NCBI GenBank assembly: GCA_024709365.1
Contig: JANJWV010000006.1
Location: 1 to 42,671, forward strand
Length of the DNA stretch: 42,671 nucleotides
DNA from: Desulfomicrobium sp.
Lineage (GTDB): Bacteria > Desulfobacterota > Desulfovibrionia > Desulfovibrionales > Desulfomicrobiaceae
Reading direction: 5' to 3'
Made by a program: the position numbers and the translations under genes. Positions 12,853 through 23,317 of this stretch are shown here, piece after piece. Each line of letters starts with the position of its first letter. The stretch's first letter is position 1. The notes below the pieces were generated by a model, which was given only the letters and a program-made list of their open reading frames with translations, searched no databases and was not told where the DNA came from.

Positions 12853-14448
12853 TTATTTCCTGACGGGCGGCGGGGTCGGGCGCCCCTTGGCCTTGGTGAA
12901 GACGATGCCGCCGTCCTTGCCCTTGCGGTTGAACATGGACAGCACCTTCTCGGCTTCCTGGAAGGGCAGGGAGACGAAGGCGAAGGTCTCCATGATCTGG
13001 ATGTCCCAGACCTTGCGCGACGGGATGCGGCAGTTCTCGTCCAGGAAGGTCAGCAGACGCTTGGGGGTCAGGCCGTCCTTGCGGCCCTGGGTGACGAAGA
13101 GGCGGGTCTTGCCCTTCTTGTCGACCACGAAGGCGTCCTCGATCTCGCGGTAGTTGGAGGCGTCGAGCTCCTCCTGGAACATGTGCTGCAGCAGGGCGGC
13201 CAGGGTCTCGCGCGGTTTGCTCTGTTCGAGCAGTTCCTGGGCCATGCCCAGAAATTCCAGCTCCGGCTCCGTGGCCACGATGGCCGCGAGCTCCGCCCGG
13301 ATGCGGTCCTTCTTCATCTTGATGACGTCGCTGACCTTGGGCAGGCGCGCCTTGCGGATGTCCGTCTTGGCCTGCTTGCTGATGAACTGCAGGCGGCGGT
13401 ACTCGGACGGCGTGATGAAGGTGATGGCGATGCCTTCCTTGCCGGCGCGGCCCGTGCGGCCGACGCGGTGCACGTAGGCCTCGGGGTCGTGGGGCAGGTC
13501 GAAATTGATGACGTGGGTCAGGTCGTGCACGTCGATGCCGCGCGCGGCCACGTCCGTGGCCACGAGAATGCGCGCCAGGCGCTTCTTGAACTTGGCCAGG
13601 ATCTTCTCGCGCAGGCTCTGGGACATGTCGCCGTGCAGGGTGTCCGCGTCGTAGCCGCGCTCCATGAGGCGCTGGGACACGGCGTCGGCGTCGACCTTGG
13701 TGCGGGTGAAGACCAGCCCGTAGAAGTCCTCCTCCATGTCGATGATGCGGCACAGGGCCTCGAACTTGTCGGCCGCCGAAACCTCGAAATAGATCTGGTC
13801 CGTCTGGGTGGCGGTGAGCTGCTCCGACGCGGCGCGGATGACCTGGTAGTCGCCCATGTATTTCTTGGCCACTCGCAGGATTTCCGGGGGCATGGTGGCG
13901 GAGAAGAGCATGGTCCGCTTCTCGGCCGCCGTCTGCTCCATGATCTCCGTCACGTCTTCCAGAAAGCCCATGTTCAGCATCTCGTCGGCCTCGTAGAGGA
14001 TGAGGAAGCGGATGCTTGAGAGGTCGAGGGTGCCGCGGCGCAGGTGGTCGAGGACACGGCCCGGGGTGCCGACGACCACGGACACGCCGCGCCGCAGGTT
14101 CCGGAGCTGGATCTCCATGGACTGCCCGCCGTAGATGGGCGTCACGCTGACGGTGCGGCCGCCGCGCAGGGAGTTGATCTCCTCGGCCACCTGGATGGCC
14201 AGTTCGCGGGTCGGGGCCAGGACCAGGTCCTGCACCTTGCGGGCATCCTGCTCCAGGAGTTCCAGCAGCGGCAGACCGAAGGCCGCGGTCTTGCCCGTGC
14301 CCGTCTGGGCCTGGGCCACGATGTCGCTCTCGCCGGCCAGCACGGCCGGGATGGTCTTGATCTGGATGGGGGTGGGCTCCTCGAAACCCTTGCGGGAGAG
14401 GGCCTGGATGGTCAGGTCGGACAGACCCAATTCGGAAAAAGTCGTCAT
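12853..14448 (-). CDS. deaD: DEAD-box ATP-dependent RNA helicase (motif II reads YEAD)
   Basis: This 531-residue RNA helicase of the DeaD/CshA type is expected to remodel RNA in ribosome assembly, decay or cold adaptation. Motifs in order: Q motif (FSELGLS with PTPIQIKTIP), motif I AQTGTGKT with K53, PTREL at about 80, TPGR at about 128, SAT at 183-185, and HRVGRTGR. A DbpA-like RNA-binding domain lies near the C-terminus (GRKDGLTPKRLLTFL). Motif II is Y152-E-A-D instead of D-E-A-D: the codon at 13993-13995 is TAC on the minus strand, one change from GAC. The first Asp normally helps bind Mg-ATP, so activity may be impaired, or this could be a sequence error. ATG 14448 is chosen from AAGG seven bases upstream and the family N-terminus. 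Confidence 0.93.
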   Translation of the reverse strand: MTTFSELGLSDLTIQALSRKGFEEPTPIQIKTIPAVLAGESDIVAQAQTGTGKTAAFGLPLLELLEQDARKVQDLVLAPTRELAIQVAEEINSLRGGRTVSVTPIYGGQSMEIQLRNLRRGVSVVVGTPGRVLDHLRRGTLDLSSIRFLILYEADEMLNMGFLEDVTEIMEQTAAEKRTMLFSATMPPEILRVAKKYMGDYQVIRAASEQLTATQTDQIYFEVSAADKFEALCRIIDMEEDFYGLVFTRTKVDADAVSQRLMERGYDADTLHGDMSQSLREKILAKFKKRLARILVATDVAARGIDVHDLTHVINFDLPHDPEAYVHRVGRTGRAGKEGIAITFITPSEYRRLQFISKQAKTDIRKARLPKVSDVIKMKKDRIRAELAAIVATEPELEFLGMAQELLEQSKPRETLAALLQHMFQEELDASNYREIEDAFVVDKKGKTRLFVTQGRKDGLTPKRLLTFLDENCRIPSRKVWDIQIMETFAFVSLPFQEAEKVLSMFNRKGKDGGIVFTKAKGRPTPPPVRK

Positions 14449-14582
14449 GAGAGTACCTTGCGGGCCCGAGGCCACGCGGTCAAAAGTGCCCGGCGCTGGA
14501 ACCGGGCCTACACCATGAGACCGACTGCCCAGGACGGGGGAAAACGCATTTCAGAAACGTGTGGAACCGGATGAGGCGACGC

Positions 14583-15686
14583 TCAAGAAGGTCGTGCGGA
14601 GAGGGGGAACGCTCCCCCGCGAGGAAATGCTCGGGGTAAATAGACGACGCGGGCTCCGTTGGCAAGCAAAAAAAGACACCTTCCCCAGAGCCTGTCGCCC
14701 CTGGCCCGCTGAAGGCGGGGCAGGGCGATGGCGGCCAGGCTCTCCAGTTCCTCGGACAGGCCCAGGGCCTGGGTCATGCTCCCGCCCCAGCAGACCAGGC
14801 CGTGGTCGTCCATGAACACGGCCTGGAAATAGCGGGCGGCCTGTCCCGCGGATGCCCCGAGTTCCGGCGTGCCGGGTATCTCGGACGGGATGCGGGTCAG
14901 CTTGGCGGCGAAGACCTGCCCTTCGTAGAGGGGCAGCTGCAGCAGGGAACCCTTGCCTCGCAGGGACAGGGCGATGAGCTTCGGGGGGTGGGTATGCACG
15001 ATGGCCTGGGCCGCCGGCTGGTTGCGGTAGATTTCAAGATGCACGGACAGCTCCGAAGAAGCCTGTGCCGACGACAGCGCGTTGCCGCTCTCAAGATCGA
15101 CCACGGCCAGGTCTTTGGGGGAGAGGTGGCCCTTGGCGCTGCCCGTGGCGGTGATGACCACGCGGGAGCCCTGGCGCATGCTGATGTTGCCGTTGAACCC
15201 GGCGAAGAGCCCGCGCAGCCAGCCGTCGCGGCCCGCCTCGATGATGGCCCGCCCGGTGTCCGGGTTGACCAGGGAGGAAAATTCCTCCCGGCCCGGGATC
15301 GCGGAGTTGTCCGGCTTGATGTCGATGACGGGCGTGCCGTCGATGACTTCCAGGGGATGGACCTGCAGACGCAGGCCCTCGCGCCCGGTGACGCGCACGT
15401 TGTGCAGGCCGATGGGCGTGGGGCGGTCCGGTGAGCGGGTGGAGAAGATGCCGCGCATGGGCAGGTCCCGGTTGCCCCGGGGGTGGCAGCGCAGCACCGA
15501 CCGGTCGCCCTGGTGCATCCAGGTCAGGACCAGGATGGCGTCCCCGACCTGCAGGTCCGTGGCCGCCGGTTCGAATTCGGGCATGATCTCGATCCAGACC
15601 GGGGGCAGGTCCGTATCCCCGTATTTGGGGCATTCCTCGCGGGTGCGCAGATGGGAGCGGACGATGCCGACGATGCTCGGGTTCAT
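14583..15686 (-). CDS. TrmO-like tRNA methyltransferase domain fused to a class II aldolase domain
   Basis: This 367-residue protein joins two families. Residues about 1-135 match TrmO/TsaA, the SAM-dependent enzyme that N6-methylates t6A37 in tRNA. Signatures are GIFSTRSPDRPTPIGLHNV at 79-97 and DGTPVIDIKP at 117-126. Residues about 140-340 match the class II aldolase/adducin family: GNISM, ATGSAKGHLSPKDLAVVDLE, E212, the HTHP motif with H231 and H233, and H295 in DDHG. These are the expected metal ligands. ATG 15686 has AAGGA about six bases upstream. The last 25 or so residues are low-complexity in character and follow a run of seven identical bases (14668-14674), so the 3' end may be altered. 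What the aldolase half acts on is unknown. It is transcribed towards deaD, with a 134-base gap. Confidence 0.85.
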   Translation of the reverse strand: MNPSIVGIVRSHLRTREECPKYGDTDLPPVWIEIMPEFEPAATDLQVGDAILVLTWMHQGDRSVLRCHPRGNRDLPMRGIFSTRSPDRPTPIGLHNVRVTGREGLRLQVHPLEVIDGTPVIDIKPDNSAIPGREEFSSLVNPDTGRAIIEAGRDGWLRGLFAGFNGNISMRQGSRVVITATGSAKGHLSPKDLAVVDLESGNALSSAQASSELSVHLEIYRNQPAAQAIVHTHPPKLIALSLRGKGSLLQLPLYEGQVFAAKLTRIPSEIPGTPELGASAGQAARYFQAVFMDDHGLVCWGGSMTQALGLSEELESLAAIALPRLQRARGDRLWGRCLFLLANGARVVYLPRAFPRGGAFPLSARPS

Positions 15687-15875
15687 GGACGGTCCTTGGT
15701 GGATGTTCTCGGTTGTGGGCACGAACCTACCGCCCGTGCTGCCGCCAGTCAAACGTCGGACCTTTCTCCGCACGGACCGCCCTGCGGCGTCGTGCATTTC
15801 CGAACGATGCTTGTATTGAGGCATCGCGGGTGGTAGCGCTTGCGAAATACCAAACCGCAACCCCGGAGCGCGCGC

Positions 15876-16851: not shown

Positions 16852-16941
16852 GTCTTCAACAGGAAAGTTTTCAGAAGAGGTATGCAGGTGCGTTTCAGGG
16901 GCCTGGCCTCTTTTTCGAATAATCTGGCAAGGAACAGTTTT

Positions 16942-19062
16942 ATGTTGATCAGGCTTTTGCGCTTCTTTCCCTTTCTTGCGTGGTTCCCCCTTTCCGCGCT
17001 GACGGTGCGGGCCGACCTCATGGCCGGCATCACCGGGGCCCTGATCCTGGTGCCCAAGGCCATGGCCTACGCCCAGCTCTCGGGCCTGCCCCTCTACTTC
17101 GGTCTCTACACGGCCTTCGTGCCGGCCATCGTCGGCGCCCTGTGGGGGTCGTCCCGGCAGCTCGCCACCGGGCCCGTGGCCATCGTCTCCCTGATGACGG
17201 CGGCCGCGGTCACGCCCCTGGCCGTGTCCAACACCCCGGAGTACATCGGCCTGGCCCTGCTGCTGACCTTCCTCGTGGGTCTCATCCAGCTGCTGCTGGG
17301 CGTGCTCAAGCTCGGGACCATCGTCAATTTCGTGTCCCACCCCGTGATCCTCGGGTTCATGAACGCCGCGGCCATCATCATCGGCCTGTCACAGCTGGAC
17401 CTGATCCTTGGCATCCCCAAGGGGCGCAGCGACTTTTTCCTCAAAGACATCTGGGAGATGCTGTGGCTCATTCCCCATGCGCACCTGCCCACCCTGGGCA
17501 TGGCCCTGCTGGGCCTGGCGCTGCTTCTCGGACTGAAGAGGATTCCCGCCCTGTCCAAGGCCGGCGTCCTCGTGGCCGTGGTCATCGCCACGCTGGTCAG
17601 CGCCCTGGTCGGGTACGACCAGAGGACCGGCGCCGTGCCCGGGGACATCGCCACCCCCCGCGCCCGCGAACTGGTCGCCCGCTACGAGGAGACCAACGAA
17701 CGCATGAAGGAGGTGGCCGCGGACATCGCCGACCTTTCGTCCCGCCAGCGGCAGGCGGACAAGGAGGGGCTGGTCTGGGTGGCCGCTGGCCTGCGGCATC
17801 AGGTCGAGCTGGCGAAGCTGGACATGCGCTCCCTGGAACGGAGGCACAACGAGCTGCTGCGCGGCGTGCGCCAGCTGCGCTTCGTGCGTCCCGCAGACAG
17901 GGAGGACGGGCCTCTGTACGAACAGGGCGCCTCGCCCGAGGGCATGGCCACGGACGGCCGCGCCTGGCACATCAAGAGCATCGAGCACGGCGCCATGAAG
18001 CTCGTGGGCGGCGGCGAGGTGGTGGGCGAGGTTCCGGCGGGCCTGCCGTCCCTGCAGATGCCTTCCCTGAACCTCGACGCGGCGCTGCAGCTTTTGTCCT
18101 CGGCGCTGATCATCGCCCTGGTGGCTTTCATGGAGTCCATCTCCATGGCCAAGGCCATGGCCAGCAAGGTCAGGCAGCACATCGACCCCAACCAGGAGCT
18201 CATCGGCCAGGGCCTGGCCAACATCGGCGGCTCCCTCTTCCAGGCCTACCCGGCCTGCGGGTCCTTCACCGGGTCGGCCATCAACCTCCAGGCCGGGGCC
18301 AGGACCGGCCTGGCCATGGTCTTTAACGGCTTCTTCGTGGCCGTGACCCTGCTTTTCTTCACTCCATGGCTTTTCCATCTGCCCAAGGCCATGCTGGCCG
18401 TGATCATCATCCTGGCCGTGGCCGGGCTGCTCACCCCCCACGCCTTCATCCACACCTGGAAGGCCAGCCGCAGCGACGGCGTCGTGGCCGCGACGACCTT
18501 CCTCGTGACCCTGCTGGCCGCGCCGCACCTGGACCGCGGCGTCATGGTCGGTGCGGCCCTGTCCATAGGGCTGTACCTCTACCGGAGCATGGCCCCGCGC
18601 GTGGCCATCCTCGGCCGCTACGCCGACGGGACCCTGCGCGACGTGCACGTGCACCCGACCCTGGCAACCTCGGACCAGGTCACGGTCATGCGCTTCGACG
18701 GGTCCCTCTATTTCGCCAACGTGGCGCACTTCGAGGACGCGGTGCTGAAGGCCGTGGCCGACCACCGCGAGGCGAGGTTCCTGCTCGTGGTCGGGGACGC
18801 CATCAACCATCTGGACTCATCGGGCGAGGAGATGCTGCAGAGCCTGGTGGGGCAGCTCAGGGAGGCGGGGGTGGAGCCCGTGTTTTCAGGGCTCAAGAAG
18901 CAGGTCCTGGACGTGATGCGCGCCACGGGCCTGTACGAGCGCATCGGCGACGAGAACATCTTCGCCACGGAATGTCAGGCCCTGAAGGCCATTTTCCGCC
19001 GCCTCGGGGAAACCGTCGAGGACGACGCCCTGTTCGCCCACGTCAAGGCCATGGTCTGCTGA
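16942..19062 (+). CDS. SulP family anion transporter with STAS domain and a central hydrophilic insertion
   Basis: This 706-residue inner-membrane protein belongs to the SulP sulfate/bicarbonate transporter family. The transmembrane core begins with the family signature around GALILVPKAMAYAQLSGLP (about 32-50). It resumes at 380 with ESISMAKAMASK and continues to about 550. The C-terminal STAS domain lies at about 575-690 and has the D625-S-S-G motif. Between about residues 227 and 355 is an extra, largely helical charged segment, rich in Glu, Arg and Ala, with coiled-coil character. It interrupts the normal link before GEVPAGLPS. ATG 16942 has AAGGA eight bases upstream; a longer frame starts at 16882. 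Substrate is probably sulfate, but bicarbonate or another anion is possible. Confidence 0.92.
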   Translation: MLIRLLRFFPFLAWFPLSALTVRADLMAGITGALILVPKAMAYAQLSGLPLYFGLYTAFVPAIVGALWGSSRQLATGPVAIVSLMTAAAVTPLAVSNTPEYIGLALLLTFLVGLIQLLLGVLKLGTIVNFVSHPVILGFMNAAAIIIGLSQLDLILGIPKGRSDFFLKDIWEMLWLIPHAHLPTLGMALLGLALLLGLKRIPALSKAGVLVAVVIATLVSALVGYDQRTGAVPGDIATPRARELVARYEETNERMKEVAADIADLSSRQRQADKEGLVWVAAGLRHQVELAKLDMRSLERRHNELLRGVRQLRFVRPADREDGPLYEQGASPEGMATDGRAWHIKSIEHGAMKLVGGGEVVGEVPAGLPSLQMPSLNLDAALQLLSSALIIALVAFMESISMAKAMASKVRQHIDPNQELIGQGLANIGGSLFQAYPACGSFTGSAINLQAGARTGLAMVFNGFFVAVTLLFFTPWLFHLPKAMLAVIIILAVAGLLTPHAFIHTWKASRSDGVVAATTFLVTLLAAPHLDRGVMVGAALSIGLYLYRSMAPRVAILGRYADGTLRDVHVHPTLATSDQVTVMRFDGSLYFANVAHFEDAVLKAVADHREARFLLVVGDAINHLDSSGEEMLQSLVGQLREAGVEPVFSGLKKQVLDVMRATGLYERIGDENIFATECQALKAIFRRLGETVEDDALFAHVKAMVC

Positions 19063-19122: not shown

Positions 19123-21294
19123 TCATTCCAGTTCGACGAAATCCTCGATGATGAGCTTGAGCCCGAAGCCGGGGAAGTTGATCTTGTACTTGTTGGGCTC
19201 CACCCGCTGCACGACCTTGCCCCGTCCGAAGATCTTGTGGCGGGCGTAGGTGCCCTGGACCGGCGTGTGGCCCTCGGCCTTGGCGCGGGGCGGATCCTGG
19301 CCGGGGAAGTCCTCGGCGCAGGTCGCGTGCGTCCTGGTTGCCTGCTGGACCGGCTGACGGGGCGGCGCGACCGTCTGCAGCCCGACGCCGCCGGTGAACT
19401 GCTCCCGGTAGCGGGACAGCAGGTGCGCGGGGATGTCCTGCAGGAAGGGGCTGACCCGGGCCGGGGTGGTGGCAGCGAGCTCCCGGCTGTAGAGAGTCTC
19501 GGGGGAGAAGAGGGTCAGGCTGTCGCGGGCCCGGGTGCAGGCCACGTACAAGAGGCGCCGCTCCTCCTCGAAGTCGTCGTTGTCGTTCATGGCGTGGCGC
19601 GAGGGGAAGCGGTCCTCCACCAGATCGATGACCAGCACCGCGTCCCACTCCAGGCCCTTGGCCGAGTGCACCGTGGACAGGGTCACGGCCTGGCCGCGGG
19701 CCTCCTCGGCGTCGGGGCTGTCGAGGCTCAGGTCGCCCAGGAAGGAGGGGATGTCTTCGTAGCCCAGCGCGATCTGGGTCAGCTCCTCCAGGCCCGCCTC
19801 GCGGCGCGGGTAGTCGTCGGGGAACCGCTCCTTCATGACGGGCAGGTAGTAGTCGAGCACGAAGGTGATGGCCGTGGCGGGCCGCATGACCTGGGTGCGC
19901 AGGGTGTCCAGCACGCGCAGGAGGTCGTCCAGCTCCGGCTTCTTGGTCCGCTGCGCCTTGAGAAAGGTCTGGTCGTTGATCATGGCCGCGTGGTGGATCT
20001 TCTGGGAGCTCTTGGGCCCGATGCCCGGCACGTTGCCGAGCACGCGCTGCCAGGCCGGCAGGTCCGAGGCGTTCAGCCCCAGGCGCAGGCAGGCCAGCAC
20101 GTCCTTGATGTGCGCCGCCTCGGAGAACTTGATGCCGCCGTACTTGCGGAACGGCAGGGCGATCTTGTTCAGTTCCACTTCCACATGGTAGGATTGATAC
20201 CCCGCCCGGAAGAGCACGGCGATCTGGTCCAGGGGGTAGGTGCGGGCCAGTTCGGTGATCTTGGCCGTGACCAGGCGGGCCTGGCTGCGGTCCGAGAAGG
20301 GCAGGACGTGTTCGGGCAGGCGCGAGTCCGTGCGTTCGGAGAAGAGGCGCTTGCAGAACTTGTCGCGGAAGCCGTCGAGGATGGCGTTGGTCAGCTCCAG
20401 GATGGGCTGGGTGGAGCGGTAGTTCTGCTCCAGCTTGACGACCCTGGCGCCGGGGAAGGTCTTGGGGAAATCCAGGATGTTCTTCACGTTGGCGCCGCGG
20501 AAGGCGTAGATGGACTGGGCGTCGTCGCCCACGGCCATGACGTTGGGCCGCTCGTCGCCGGGCCTGGTCAGCAGGCGCACCAGCCGGGCCTGGACCAGGT
20601 TGGTGTCCTGGTATTCGTCGACCATGATGTGCGAGATGGACGAGGTCACGGCCTCGCGCACGTGCTGGTGGTCGCTCAGCAGCCGCTCCAGCAGGAAGAG
20701 CAGGTCGTCGTAGTCCAGCAGCCCGCATTCGGCCTTGATGCGCTCGTATTCCTCGATGAGCCGCGTCAGGTCGTCCTCGTACGTGCCGAGGTGGTAGGCC
20801 TCCTGGCGCAGGACCTGGGACAGGGGCAGCTCCTTGTTGCGGCTCTTGCTGTACAGGCCCAGGATCGTGGCCCGCTTGGGGAACTTGCGGTCCCCGCGGC
20901 CGATGCGCAGCCGGTCCTTGGCCTGGCCCAGGATGTCCTCGCCGTCGCCGCGGTCCATGACGGTGGCGCCGCGTTCGAAGCCCAGCAGGCCTGCGTACTG
21001 CTTGAGCAGGGAATAGGCGAAACCGTGGAAGGTGCCGCCGCGCACGCCGCCCAGGCCCTGGTGGCCCAGGAGCGCCTCGGCGCGGTGCAGCATTTCCGAC
21101 GAGGCCTTGCGGGTGAAGGTCAGCAGCAGGATTTCGAACGGGGAAACCCCGGACTCGACCAGTCTGGCCAGGCGGTAGACAACGGTGCGGGTCTTGCCCG
21201 AGCCTGCGCCGGCGATGACCAGGACCGGGCCGTCCAGGGTGGTGGCGGCCTCGTACTGGGCCAGATTGAGATCGTTTTCGTAGTCGATGTGCAT
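19123..21294 (-). CDS. UvrD/PcrA-type ATP-dependent DNA helicase
   Basis: This 723-residue superfamily 1A helicase is expected to unwind DNA during repair and to clear proteins from DNA. Motif Ia region and Walker A are present (AGAGSGKT at 28-35), followed by LTFTRKASSEM, Walker B VDEYQDTN, GDDAQSIYAFRGA, QNYRSTQPIL, TVHSAKGLEWD and LYVACTRARDSL. The C-terminus (HKIFGRGKVVQRVEPNKYKI) resembles the Tudor-like domain by which PcrA/UvrD binds RNA polymerase. That hints at transcription-coupled repair. The linker before it is rich in Pro, Gln and Ala. UvrD, PcrA and Rep cannot be told apart safely by eye. The start lies five bases after the stop of the upstream phosphodiesterase gene, so the two are co-transcribed. 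Confidence 0.93.
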   Translation of the reverse strand: MHIDYENDLNLAQYEAATTLDGPVLVIAGAGSGKTRTVVYRLARLVESGVSPFEILLLTFTRKASSEMLHRAEALLGHQGLGGVRGGTFHGFAYSLLKQYAGLLGFERGATVMDRGDGEDILGQAKDRLRIGRGDRKFPKRATILGLYSKSRNKELPLSQVLRQEAYHLGTYEDDLTRLIEEYERIKAECGLLDYDDLLFLLERLLSDHQHVREAVTSSISHIMVDEYQDTNLVQARLVRLLTRPGDERPNVMAVGDDAQSIYAFRGANVKNILDFPKTFPGARVVKLEQNYRSTQPILELTNAILDGFRDKFCKRLFSERTDSRLPEHVLPFSDRSQARLVTAKITELARTYPLDQIAVLFRAGYQSYHVEVELNKIALPFRKYGGIKFSEAAHIKDVLACLRLGLNASDLPAWQRVLGNVPGIGPKSSQKIHHAAMINDQTFLKAQRTKKPELDDLLRVLDTLRTQVMRPATAITFVLDYYLPVMKERFPDDYPRREAGLEELTQIALGYEDIPSFLGDLSLDSPDAEEARGQAVTLSTVHSAKGLEWDAVLVIDLVEDRFPSRHAMNDNDDFEEERRLLYVACTRARDSLTLFSPETLYSRELAATTPARVSPFLQDIPAHLLSRYREQFTGGVGLQTVAPPRQPVQQATRTHATCAEDFPGQDPPRAKAEGHTPVQGTYARHKIFGRGKVVQRVEPNKYKINFPGFGLKLIIEDFVELE

Positions 21295-21299
21295 GGGTC

Positions 21300-22604
21300 T
21301 CAGTTCCCCAGGATGGAGGCGGGGAGGCCGTAATGTTCGAGAATCAGGCGGCCGACGTCCGTGGGCGTGCGCGCGTCTTCGCCCATGGAGTCGAAGAAGA
21401 ACACGTCGTCGGCCGTATGCATGCCCTGGCGTCCGAAGTGTCCGAAGACGCCCTGGCGCCCGAATTTGCCCTTGAGGTCGAATCCCGCCTCAGGGATCAG
21501 CACCAGGTCCGGAGCCAGGTGGGCCAGTGGGCCGCCGTAGAGGTCGGACCCGCGCAGGACGCTGCGCACGACCCTTCGCCCTTGCCAGGTCAGGGCGGGC
21601 AGGGCGCGGATCAGCTCCCGGGCCAGCCCTTCGGCCTCGGGCCTGGTCAGATTGCCGCGGGCGAAGCGCTCTTTGGTGTGCAGGTAGATGCGTCCGGGGT
21701 CAAGGGCGAAGGCCTTGGTGCCGGGGCCAATGGCGTCCGTGTCCCACTCGCTCGCCGGGACGCGGGACAGGCGCAGTAGACCCGCCTCCCGCAACCAGGC
21801 GTTGAGGTCCACTTCCTGTACGAGGGAAGTGAACCCGTGGTCGGCCATGATGACGAGGCGTTTTGGCTCGGGCAGGGCGTCGTACAGGTCCAGCACCCTC
21901 CCGACGAGCCGGTCCCAGGCGGCCATGAAGCGCAGGGCCTCGGTGCGCCATGGGTGGAAGGGCTCCGTCAGCGCCGGGAAGAGGAAGTGCCCCAAACGGT
22001 CCGTTTCCGTCAGCACGAGGAAGAAGAGGTCCCAGGACATGTCCGGCCACAGGAGGTCCAGGGCCTTTTCCCGGCAGGCCAGGGAGCGGTGGAGCTCCTC
22101 CAGCAGGAAAACCGGGTCCGCGGCCCCGCGCACGGTGTCGGCCTCGACCGTGTAGCCGTGGTCGGCCAGGATGCCCGCCAGGGCCGGAGGGTGGACGGCG
22201 CCTTCCAGGGAGTGGGCCGGGAATCCCGCCACGAGCATGGCCCGCATGGGCCTCACCGGGGCCAGGTTGGGCATGTTCACGACCTTGGGGAAGAGCCCGG
22301 CCTCGGCCAGCCGCTCGAAGATGGTCGGCCCGTGCACATGGGTGAAATCCGTGAAGCGCAGTTCGTAGGTCTGCGGGTCCATGTGCGTGAAGCCGAAGAC
22401 GCCATGATGGCCCGGGGGAGACGCGGTGAACATGCTGGTCCAGTTCACGGGCGAGAGTTCGGGCAACTCGGCGGAAATGGCCTTGCAGTGCGGCGAGCCG
22501 ACGATGGCGGAGAGGTTCGGCAGCAGCCCCTGGGCGCACAGCGTGCCGGCCAGGGACCAGGGCAGGCCGTCCAGGCCCAGGAAAACCAGTCGGGAGGAAT
22601 GCAT
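21300..22604 (-). CDS. alkaline-phosphatase superfamily phosphodiesterase/nucleotide pyrophosphatase
   Basis: This 434-residue protein belongs to the type I phosphodiesterase/nucleotide pyrophosphatase branch of the alkaline phosphatase superfamily. Metal-site landmarks appear in order: FLGLDGLPW near the N-terminus, the nucleophile region NWTSMFTASPPGHHGVFGF, TETDRLGHFLF, MADHGF and finally the histidine in RQGMHTADD. No signal peptide is visible, which suggests a cytoplasmic enzyme. The substrate is unknown. ATG 22604 fits the family N-terminus, although no clear ribosome site precedes it. The helicase gene begins five bases after its stop, an odd partnership. It is divergent from tpx. Confidence 0.87.
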   Translation of the reverse strand: MHSSRLVFLGLDGLPWSLAGTLCAQGLLPNLSAIVGSPHCKAISAELPELSPVNWTSMFTASPPGHHGVFGFTHMDPQTYELRFTDFTHVHGPTIFERLAEAGLFPKVVNMPNLAPVRPMRAMLVAGFPAHSLEGAVHPPALAGILADHGYTVEADTVRGAADPVFLLEELHRSLACREKALDLLWPDMSWDLFFLVLTETDRLGHFLFPALTEPFHPWRTEALRFMAAWDRLVGRVLDLYDALPEPKRLVIMADHGFTSLVQEVDLNAWLREAGLLRLSRVPASEWDTDAIGPGTKAFALDPGRIYLHTKERFARGNLTRPEAEGLARELIRALPALTWQGRRVVRSVLRGSDLYGGPLAHLAPDLVLIPEAGFDLKGKFGRQGVFGHFGRQGMHTADDVFFFDSMGEDARTPTDVGRLILEHYGLPASILGN

Positions 22605-22801
22605 GGGGGCGGTGTAGCAGGGGGCGGGGTCGTTGGCCAGACGGGAAAACCGGGGCGCCCGGCGGAGGAATTTCGAACAAAATGTGCTTCCCCCCTTGCG
22701 CATGAGCCCCAAGATATTAGAAAGCAAACTATTATCAATCGGCCCCGGAGGCCCCGCCCTGTCATGCGGGACGCACCGGAGCGCAACAACGGGAGCAAGC
22801 A

Positions 22802-23317
<516 letters not shown>

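Follow-up and report, generated by a model that had tools for sequence, protein, structure and literature searches.

A conserved fusion of a TrmO-like domain and a class II aldolase in the Desulfovibrionales

Introduction

Many archaea and bacteria encode short proteins of the TrmO family, which are annotated as tRNA t6A37 methyltransferases despite missing a domain that the Escherichia coli enzyme requires. The AdoMet contacts of the family are known from AF0241 and were tested in E. coli TrmO as Q25, R92, D125 and K136; mutation of the C-terminal DPRxxY domain abolishes the E. coli reaction, and archaeal TrmO homologues, which also do without this domain, may act on another substrate (PMC4132733). 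For the class II aldolases, the shunt chemistry of DrdA and Ald2 in the disposal of SAM by-products is established (PMC6079011, PMC10986504). Here we describe a gene of Desulfomicrobium sp. in which a TrmO-like domain and a class II aldolase form one protein. The window is the whole stretch of DNA that was analysed, 42,671 nucleotides of contig JANJWV010000006.1.

Results

One open reading frame encodes both domains

The open reading frame that a preliminary description of the window had claimed at 14583-15686 lies exactly there, on the minus strand, and encodes 367 residues from an ATG. Its features are as follows.

14583..15686, minus strand: fusion gene, TrmO-like domain plus class II aldolase, 367 aa; single ORF with ATG start
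15693..15697, minus strand: Shine-Dalgarno-like AAGGA, 6 nt 5' of the ATG of the fusion gene; read from the sequence
15312..15596, minus strand: TrmO_N (class VIII AdoMet methyltransferase) domain, residues 31-125, the whole half being residues 1-129; Pfam
15249..15299, minus strand: short linker, residues 130-146; gap between the Pfam domains, structure model of low confidence at residues 129-133
14721..15248, minus strand: class II aldolase/adducin domain, residues 147-322; Pfam and Foldseek
14583..14714, minus strand: unconserved 43-residue C-terminal tail and stop; congeners end at residue 324

In Pfam, residues 31-125 match TrmO_N (PF01980) with 75.3 bits against a cut-off of 26.8 (E 5.8e-21), and residues 147-322 match Aldolase_II (PF00596) with 140 bits (E 1e-40) over the entire profile. 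The fusion proteins of congeners stop (TGA) at residue 324, and the window protein runs on for another 43 residues (325-367) that have no match in congeners; given that usual stop, the tail lies outside the conserved protein. A structure model, built from eight sequences only and poor at residues 58-90 of the methyltransferase half, has two domains, of which the aldolase half alone was good enough for fold matching; none of our conclusions depends on this model.

The fusion is genuine and spans the order

A single uninterrupted match over both domains was found in about 60 of 150 Desulfovibrionales genomes, with all six sampled families represented, and a wider draw of genomes from the order added further genera. 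Variants also occur whose linker is ~70 aa long or whose aldolase domain contains an insert of ~37 aa (L054, L061, L062), and each of the three was checked and is a single ORF. The contig scan of genomes revealed no fused relatives beyond the Desulfovibrionales or unresolved proteobacterial MAGs, and no full-length fusion outside the order was among the matches listed for a sample of the same phylum.

These data bear directly on one alternative, namely that two genes were merged by a frameshift or an assembly join. Separate single genes for the two halves in some genera might suggest as much; however, there is no frameshift, and the identical single-ORF architecture recurs in many independent assemblies and in all six families, which excludes such an artefact with near certainty. 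The domain matches and the ~60 fused relatives thus bear out the earlier proposal of a true and unusual fusion. The open-access literature held no paper naming both TrmO/UPF0066 and aldolase, and a search of it for TsaA, Desulfovibrio and fusion returned one paper, which was irrelevant. Two known families are combined here in a domain architecture that is genuine, ancient and apparently undescribed.

The methyltransferase half probably binds AdoMet

In the fusion protein of the window, R84 and K124 correspond to the AdoMet-contacting R82 and K122 of AF0241, with E113 at the place of D111 and Y22 at that of Q22; equivalently, Q25, R92, D125 and K136 of E. coli TrmO map to Y22, R84, E113 and K124. 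Among 38 fused proteins, the Arg and the Lys are present in all (38/38 each), Asp has become Glu in 36/38 and Gln is retained in 25/38, and the RPNPIG motif reads RPTPIG in the Desulfomicrobium fusions. Since the contact Arg and Lys are invariant, AdoMet binding by this half is likely, judging from sequence conservation.

It was in its more specific form, as a tRNA t6A37 methyltransferase domain, that the first assignment proved unsupported. Neither a DPRxxY motif nor the C-terminal domain was detected in the fusion protein, in which the aldolase sits at that position, and the same genome has a second, distant TrmO-family gene (L001, 164 aa); for these two reasons the identity of the fusion as a t6A37 methyltransferase is not established, and we do not file it as one. 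It could be argued that the N-terminal half is nonetheless a working TrmO making m6t6A37, with the aldolase as a passenger of unrelated sugar metabolism and the fusion conferring co-expression only. Such a role would agree with the NCBIfam score (96.8 bits against the TIGR00104 cut-off of 93.25), with the conserved AdoMet-contacting Arg and Lys and with several fusion genomes in which the fused copy is the sole TrmO-like match. Yet the domain needed in E. coli (PMC4132733) is missing, Q22 is Tyr and RPNPIG is altered in Desulfomicrobium, a second family member is at hand, and most g12 genomes have no TrmO-like match whatever, so that we regard a working TrmO with a passenger aldolase as rather unlikely.

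The aldolase half has a complete set of catalytic residues

The preliminary description had reported a Glu and three His ligands in place in the C-terminal half, and this holds: E212, H231, H233 and H295, which we take to correspond to the catalytic Glu and the metal-binding His residues of FucA, are invariant in eight aligned relatives. The domain also has phosphate-site-like residues (N167, G182, S210, S211). Foldseek matched the predicted fold of this half best to FucA-type aldolases, with DrdA (6btd/6btg) among the matches. None of the named aldolase equivalog cut-offs in NCBIfam (FucA, MtnB, OtnC or other) was reached, the best score being 102.5 against 267, and the top matches included archaeal PRK08333, OtnC and FucA_Meth ahead of MtnB, all far below their cut-offs.

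The genome encodes no class II aldolase (Aldolase_II) other than the fused one. Across the 150 Desulfovibrionales genomes, 85 have only this type, 47 only another, 6 both and 12 neither, counts that are confounded by phylogeny; a second type is thus rare beside this one, and where this one is missing a different class II aldolase is nearly always present. The replacement enzymes are a FucA-type enzyme, a two-domain protein of ~400 aa and an aldolase directly downstream of mtnA. The ~400-aa protein, which has an additional N-terminal domain as well as a Cys-rich insert (L108, L109, L111-L113, L122, L123), is common in several Desulfovibrionaceae-like genera.

SAM by-product salvage is the best candidate role

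Most plausibly, we infer, the aldolase half acts as the 5-deoxy-/5-methylthioribulose-1-phosphate aldolase of SAM by-product salvage, a candidacy that rests on its being the sole class II aldolase, on co-occurrence with MtnA and on the established chemistry of DrdA and Ald2. The earlier verdict that no obvious pathway explains the fusion was thus too pessimistic, as salvage of SAM by-products through the DHAP shunt is a testable candidate.

MtnA is encoded in 142/150 relatives; in the window's own genome it is in two pieces, one of them at a contig end. In three genomes (G104, G119, G149) the gene directly downstream of mtnA encodes another class II aldolase, and three further genomes (G090, G111, G125) have neither MtnA nor any class II aldolase. 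Among 131 good genomes, absence of any class II aldolase accompanies absence of MtnA in 3/4 compared with 2/127 where MtnA is present (Fisher p 1e-4), although the genomes in question are reduced, phylogeny confounds the comparison and the near-universal MtnA discriminates poorly. At three loci (L105, L106, L107) the gene immediately after mtnA encodes a divergent class II aldolase, likely an unrecognised shunt aldolase; the copy scanned, from L105, matches no NCBIfam model at 1e-8.

Neither a canonical MTA phosphorylase (MtnP) at cut-off nor an MTR kinase (MtnK) was found in the fusion genomes sampled. PNP-like relatives below cut-off are present in congeners, and of the PNP_UDP_1 proteins in the window genome one is a futalosine hydrolase and the other resembles uridine phosphorylases. 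The mtnA gene lies away from the fusion, adjoining der in Desulfomicrobium. The open-access literature yielded no report on Desulfovibrio together with methionine salvage or mtnA.

That the upstream shunt enzymes were not found is also an argument that the aldolase acts elsewhere, as a fuculose-1-phosphate/ribulose-1-phosphate aldolase, an OtnC-type decarboxylase or an MtnB-type dehydratase unrelated to SAM by-products. The class II aldolase family is promiscuous, and the order of the NCBIfam matches, with MtnB behind PRK08333, OtnC and FucA_Meth, points the same way. All of those matches are far below cut-off, however, and a sole class II aldolase that is near-universal in an MtnA-keeping order is unlike a sugar-catabolic accessory gene; we therefore consider a role outside salvage doubtful, while giving it some weight.

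A probable single ancestral fusion and repeated loss of either half

Where the locus is largely shared (PcrA/UvrD helicase, ThiL), only the aldolase half is present in g12 and in a small number of other groups, and only the TrmO half in g8, g21, g22, g28 and g33. In quick trees, for which SH-aLRT is the only support measure, the TrmO-only rows are scattered within the fused rows, where well-supported branches force two or more changes, and the fused and ThiL-locus aldolases form one clade (SH-aLRT 97) within which the aldolase-only rows of g12 and g36 are nested (SH-aLRT 98). Given this nesting of single-domain forms in the fused clade, the simplest reading of the trees is one ancestral fusion, before the whole order diversified, followed by several losses of either half. 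It had been anticipated that a frameshift or join, or relatives carrying the halves as separate genes, would argue against a true fusion: the former is absent, and some relatives do carry one half alone, yet on this reading they descended from the fusion by loss of the other.

In some lineages one half has outlived the other, so the two activities are linked yet separable, and the freedom to lose either half argues against tight coupling. The same pattern weighs against the idea that the TrmO-like half is no methyltransferase and instead senses SAM, as a regulatory or scaffolding domain by which the aldolase is tuned. Retention of AdoMet-binding residues in a protein lacking the DPRxxY substrate domain, next to a candidate SAM-salvage enzyme, could be so explained; but the TrmO half stands alone in several genera without this aldolase, which implies a function of its own, and the aldolase half works without it in other genera, making a sensor very improbable.

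A recurring gene neighbourhood

The genes around the fusion that recur at other loci or in congeners are listed here.

12853..14475, minus strand: DEAD-box RNA helicase, next gene downstream of the fusion; same arrangement in congeners (L057/L058)
19123..21294, minus strand: UvrD/PcrA-type helicase, family F2, of the conserved neighbourhood; recurs across loci
21300..22802, minus strand: phosphodiesterase/alkaline-phosphatase-type protein, family F3, of the conserved neighbourhood; class from sequence only

Over 41 loci, the recurring neighbours are the phosphodiesterase-type protein, the UvrD/PcrA helicase and the thiamine-phosphate kinase ThiL, the last directly adjacent on the same strand at 17/38 loci. 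A thiamine link was considered on account of ThiL and rejected, as Desulfomicrobium lacks the adjacency and shared housekeeping synteny seems to account for it.

Two neighbours have peculiarities of their own. Motif II of the DEAD-box helicase is YEAD (FLILYEADEML) instead of the DEAD seen in every congener copy checked, which reflects either a one-base change that would remove a Mg-coordinating Asp or a sequencing error. The SulP-type sulfate permease (16882-19062, plus strand) has a long hydrophilic, coiled-coil-like insert of ~130-150 residues, which interrupts the transporter ahead of the STAS domain.

An aldolase-TrmO gene pair outside the order

Both kinds of gene also lie side by side in family f44 of the same phylum: at L082, L083 and L084 a short TrmO gene comes directly after a class II aldolase gene, their ends overlapping. 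The order is the reverse of that in the fusion, and both genes belong to different clades from the fusion halves. Two further f44 loci (L085, L086) have one of the two genes only, at the corresponding place. By our own estimate, taking two adjacent slots among ~2000 genes per family, chance alone would yield ~0.1 such adjacency across the ~90 families sampled. The pair, an association independent of the fusion, represents one evolutionary event and is suggestive rather than conclusive.

At these five loci the genes adjoin an archaetidylinositol-phosphate-synthase-like gene, and UbiX-, UbiA- and futalosine-hydrolase-like genes are close by at L085 and L086. A nucleoside phosphorylase next to the f44 gene pair was set aside as a sign of 5'-deoxyadenosine salvage: at related loci it occurs with UbiX- and UbiA-like genes, which makes futalosine hydrolase (MqnB) the likelier identity.

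On the most far-reaching reading, a class VIII AdoMet methyltransferase and a DHAP-producing aldolase would be one functional unit serving a single linked pathway. Both AdoMet and an aldol step might, for instance, go into modifying an RNA or a metabolite, or AdoMet might gate the disposal of SAM by-products. The association would then have arisen twice, as a fusion in the Desulfovibrionales and as a reverse-order operon in another family. We think this improbable.

Discussion

Our preferred reading, to which we would assign a probability of roughly 0.4, is that of a bifunctional housekeeping protein, descended from one ancestral fusion, in which an AdoMet methyltransferase half and a SAM by-product salvage aldolase remain separable. 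The N-terminal half would be a beta-barrel methyltransferase of class VIII that binds AdoMet and belongs to the short, archaeal-like kind of TrmO; it would probably be dimeric and methylate RNA or another substrate. The C-terminal half would be a metal-dependent class II aldolase cleaving a ketose 1-phosphate to DHAP and an aldehyde, the ketose most likely being 5-deoxyribulose-1-phosphate or 5-methylthioribulose-1-phosphate made by MtnA. The two activities may share no more than SAM economy, and lineages could accordingly keep a single half. A conserved fusion repeatedly reduced to one half offers a natural handle on what short TrmO proteins methylate. It also provides a candidate for the aldolase that sulfate-reducing bacteria are missing in their disposal of SAM by-products.

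The fusion can be set against three known systems. With TrmO/YaeB and the short archaeal-like proteins AF0241 (2nv4) and RPA0152 (3okx) it shares the TrmO_N beta-barrel, the AdoMet-contacting Arg and Lys and an RGxFxTRSPxRP motif; it differs in having an aldolase instead of a C-terminal DPRxxY domain, and in the change of D111 to Glu in nearly all fused proteins and of Q22 to Tyr in Desulfomicrobium. The DHAP shunt or 5-deoxyribose disposal pathway (MtnP or MtnK, MtnA, Ald2/DrdA) is matched by the availability of MtnA and one class II aldolase and by the three relatives with another aldolase directly downstream of mtnA, whereas canonical MtnP and MtnK were not found in the fusion genomes sampled and the fusion is unlinked to mtnA. 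As for FucA, DrdA (6btd/6btg) and Ald2, the fusion aldolase forms a separate clade, reaches no equivalog cut-off, is joined to a methyltransferase domain and lies outside any mtnK/mtnA/ald cluster, but it resembles them in its full Aldolase_II domain, its catalytic Glu and three metal His, its phosphate-site-like residues and its predicted FucA/DrdA-like fold.
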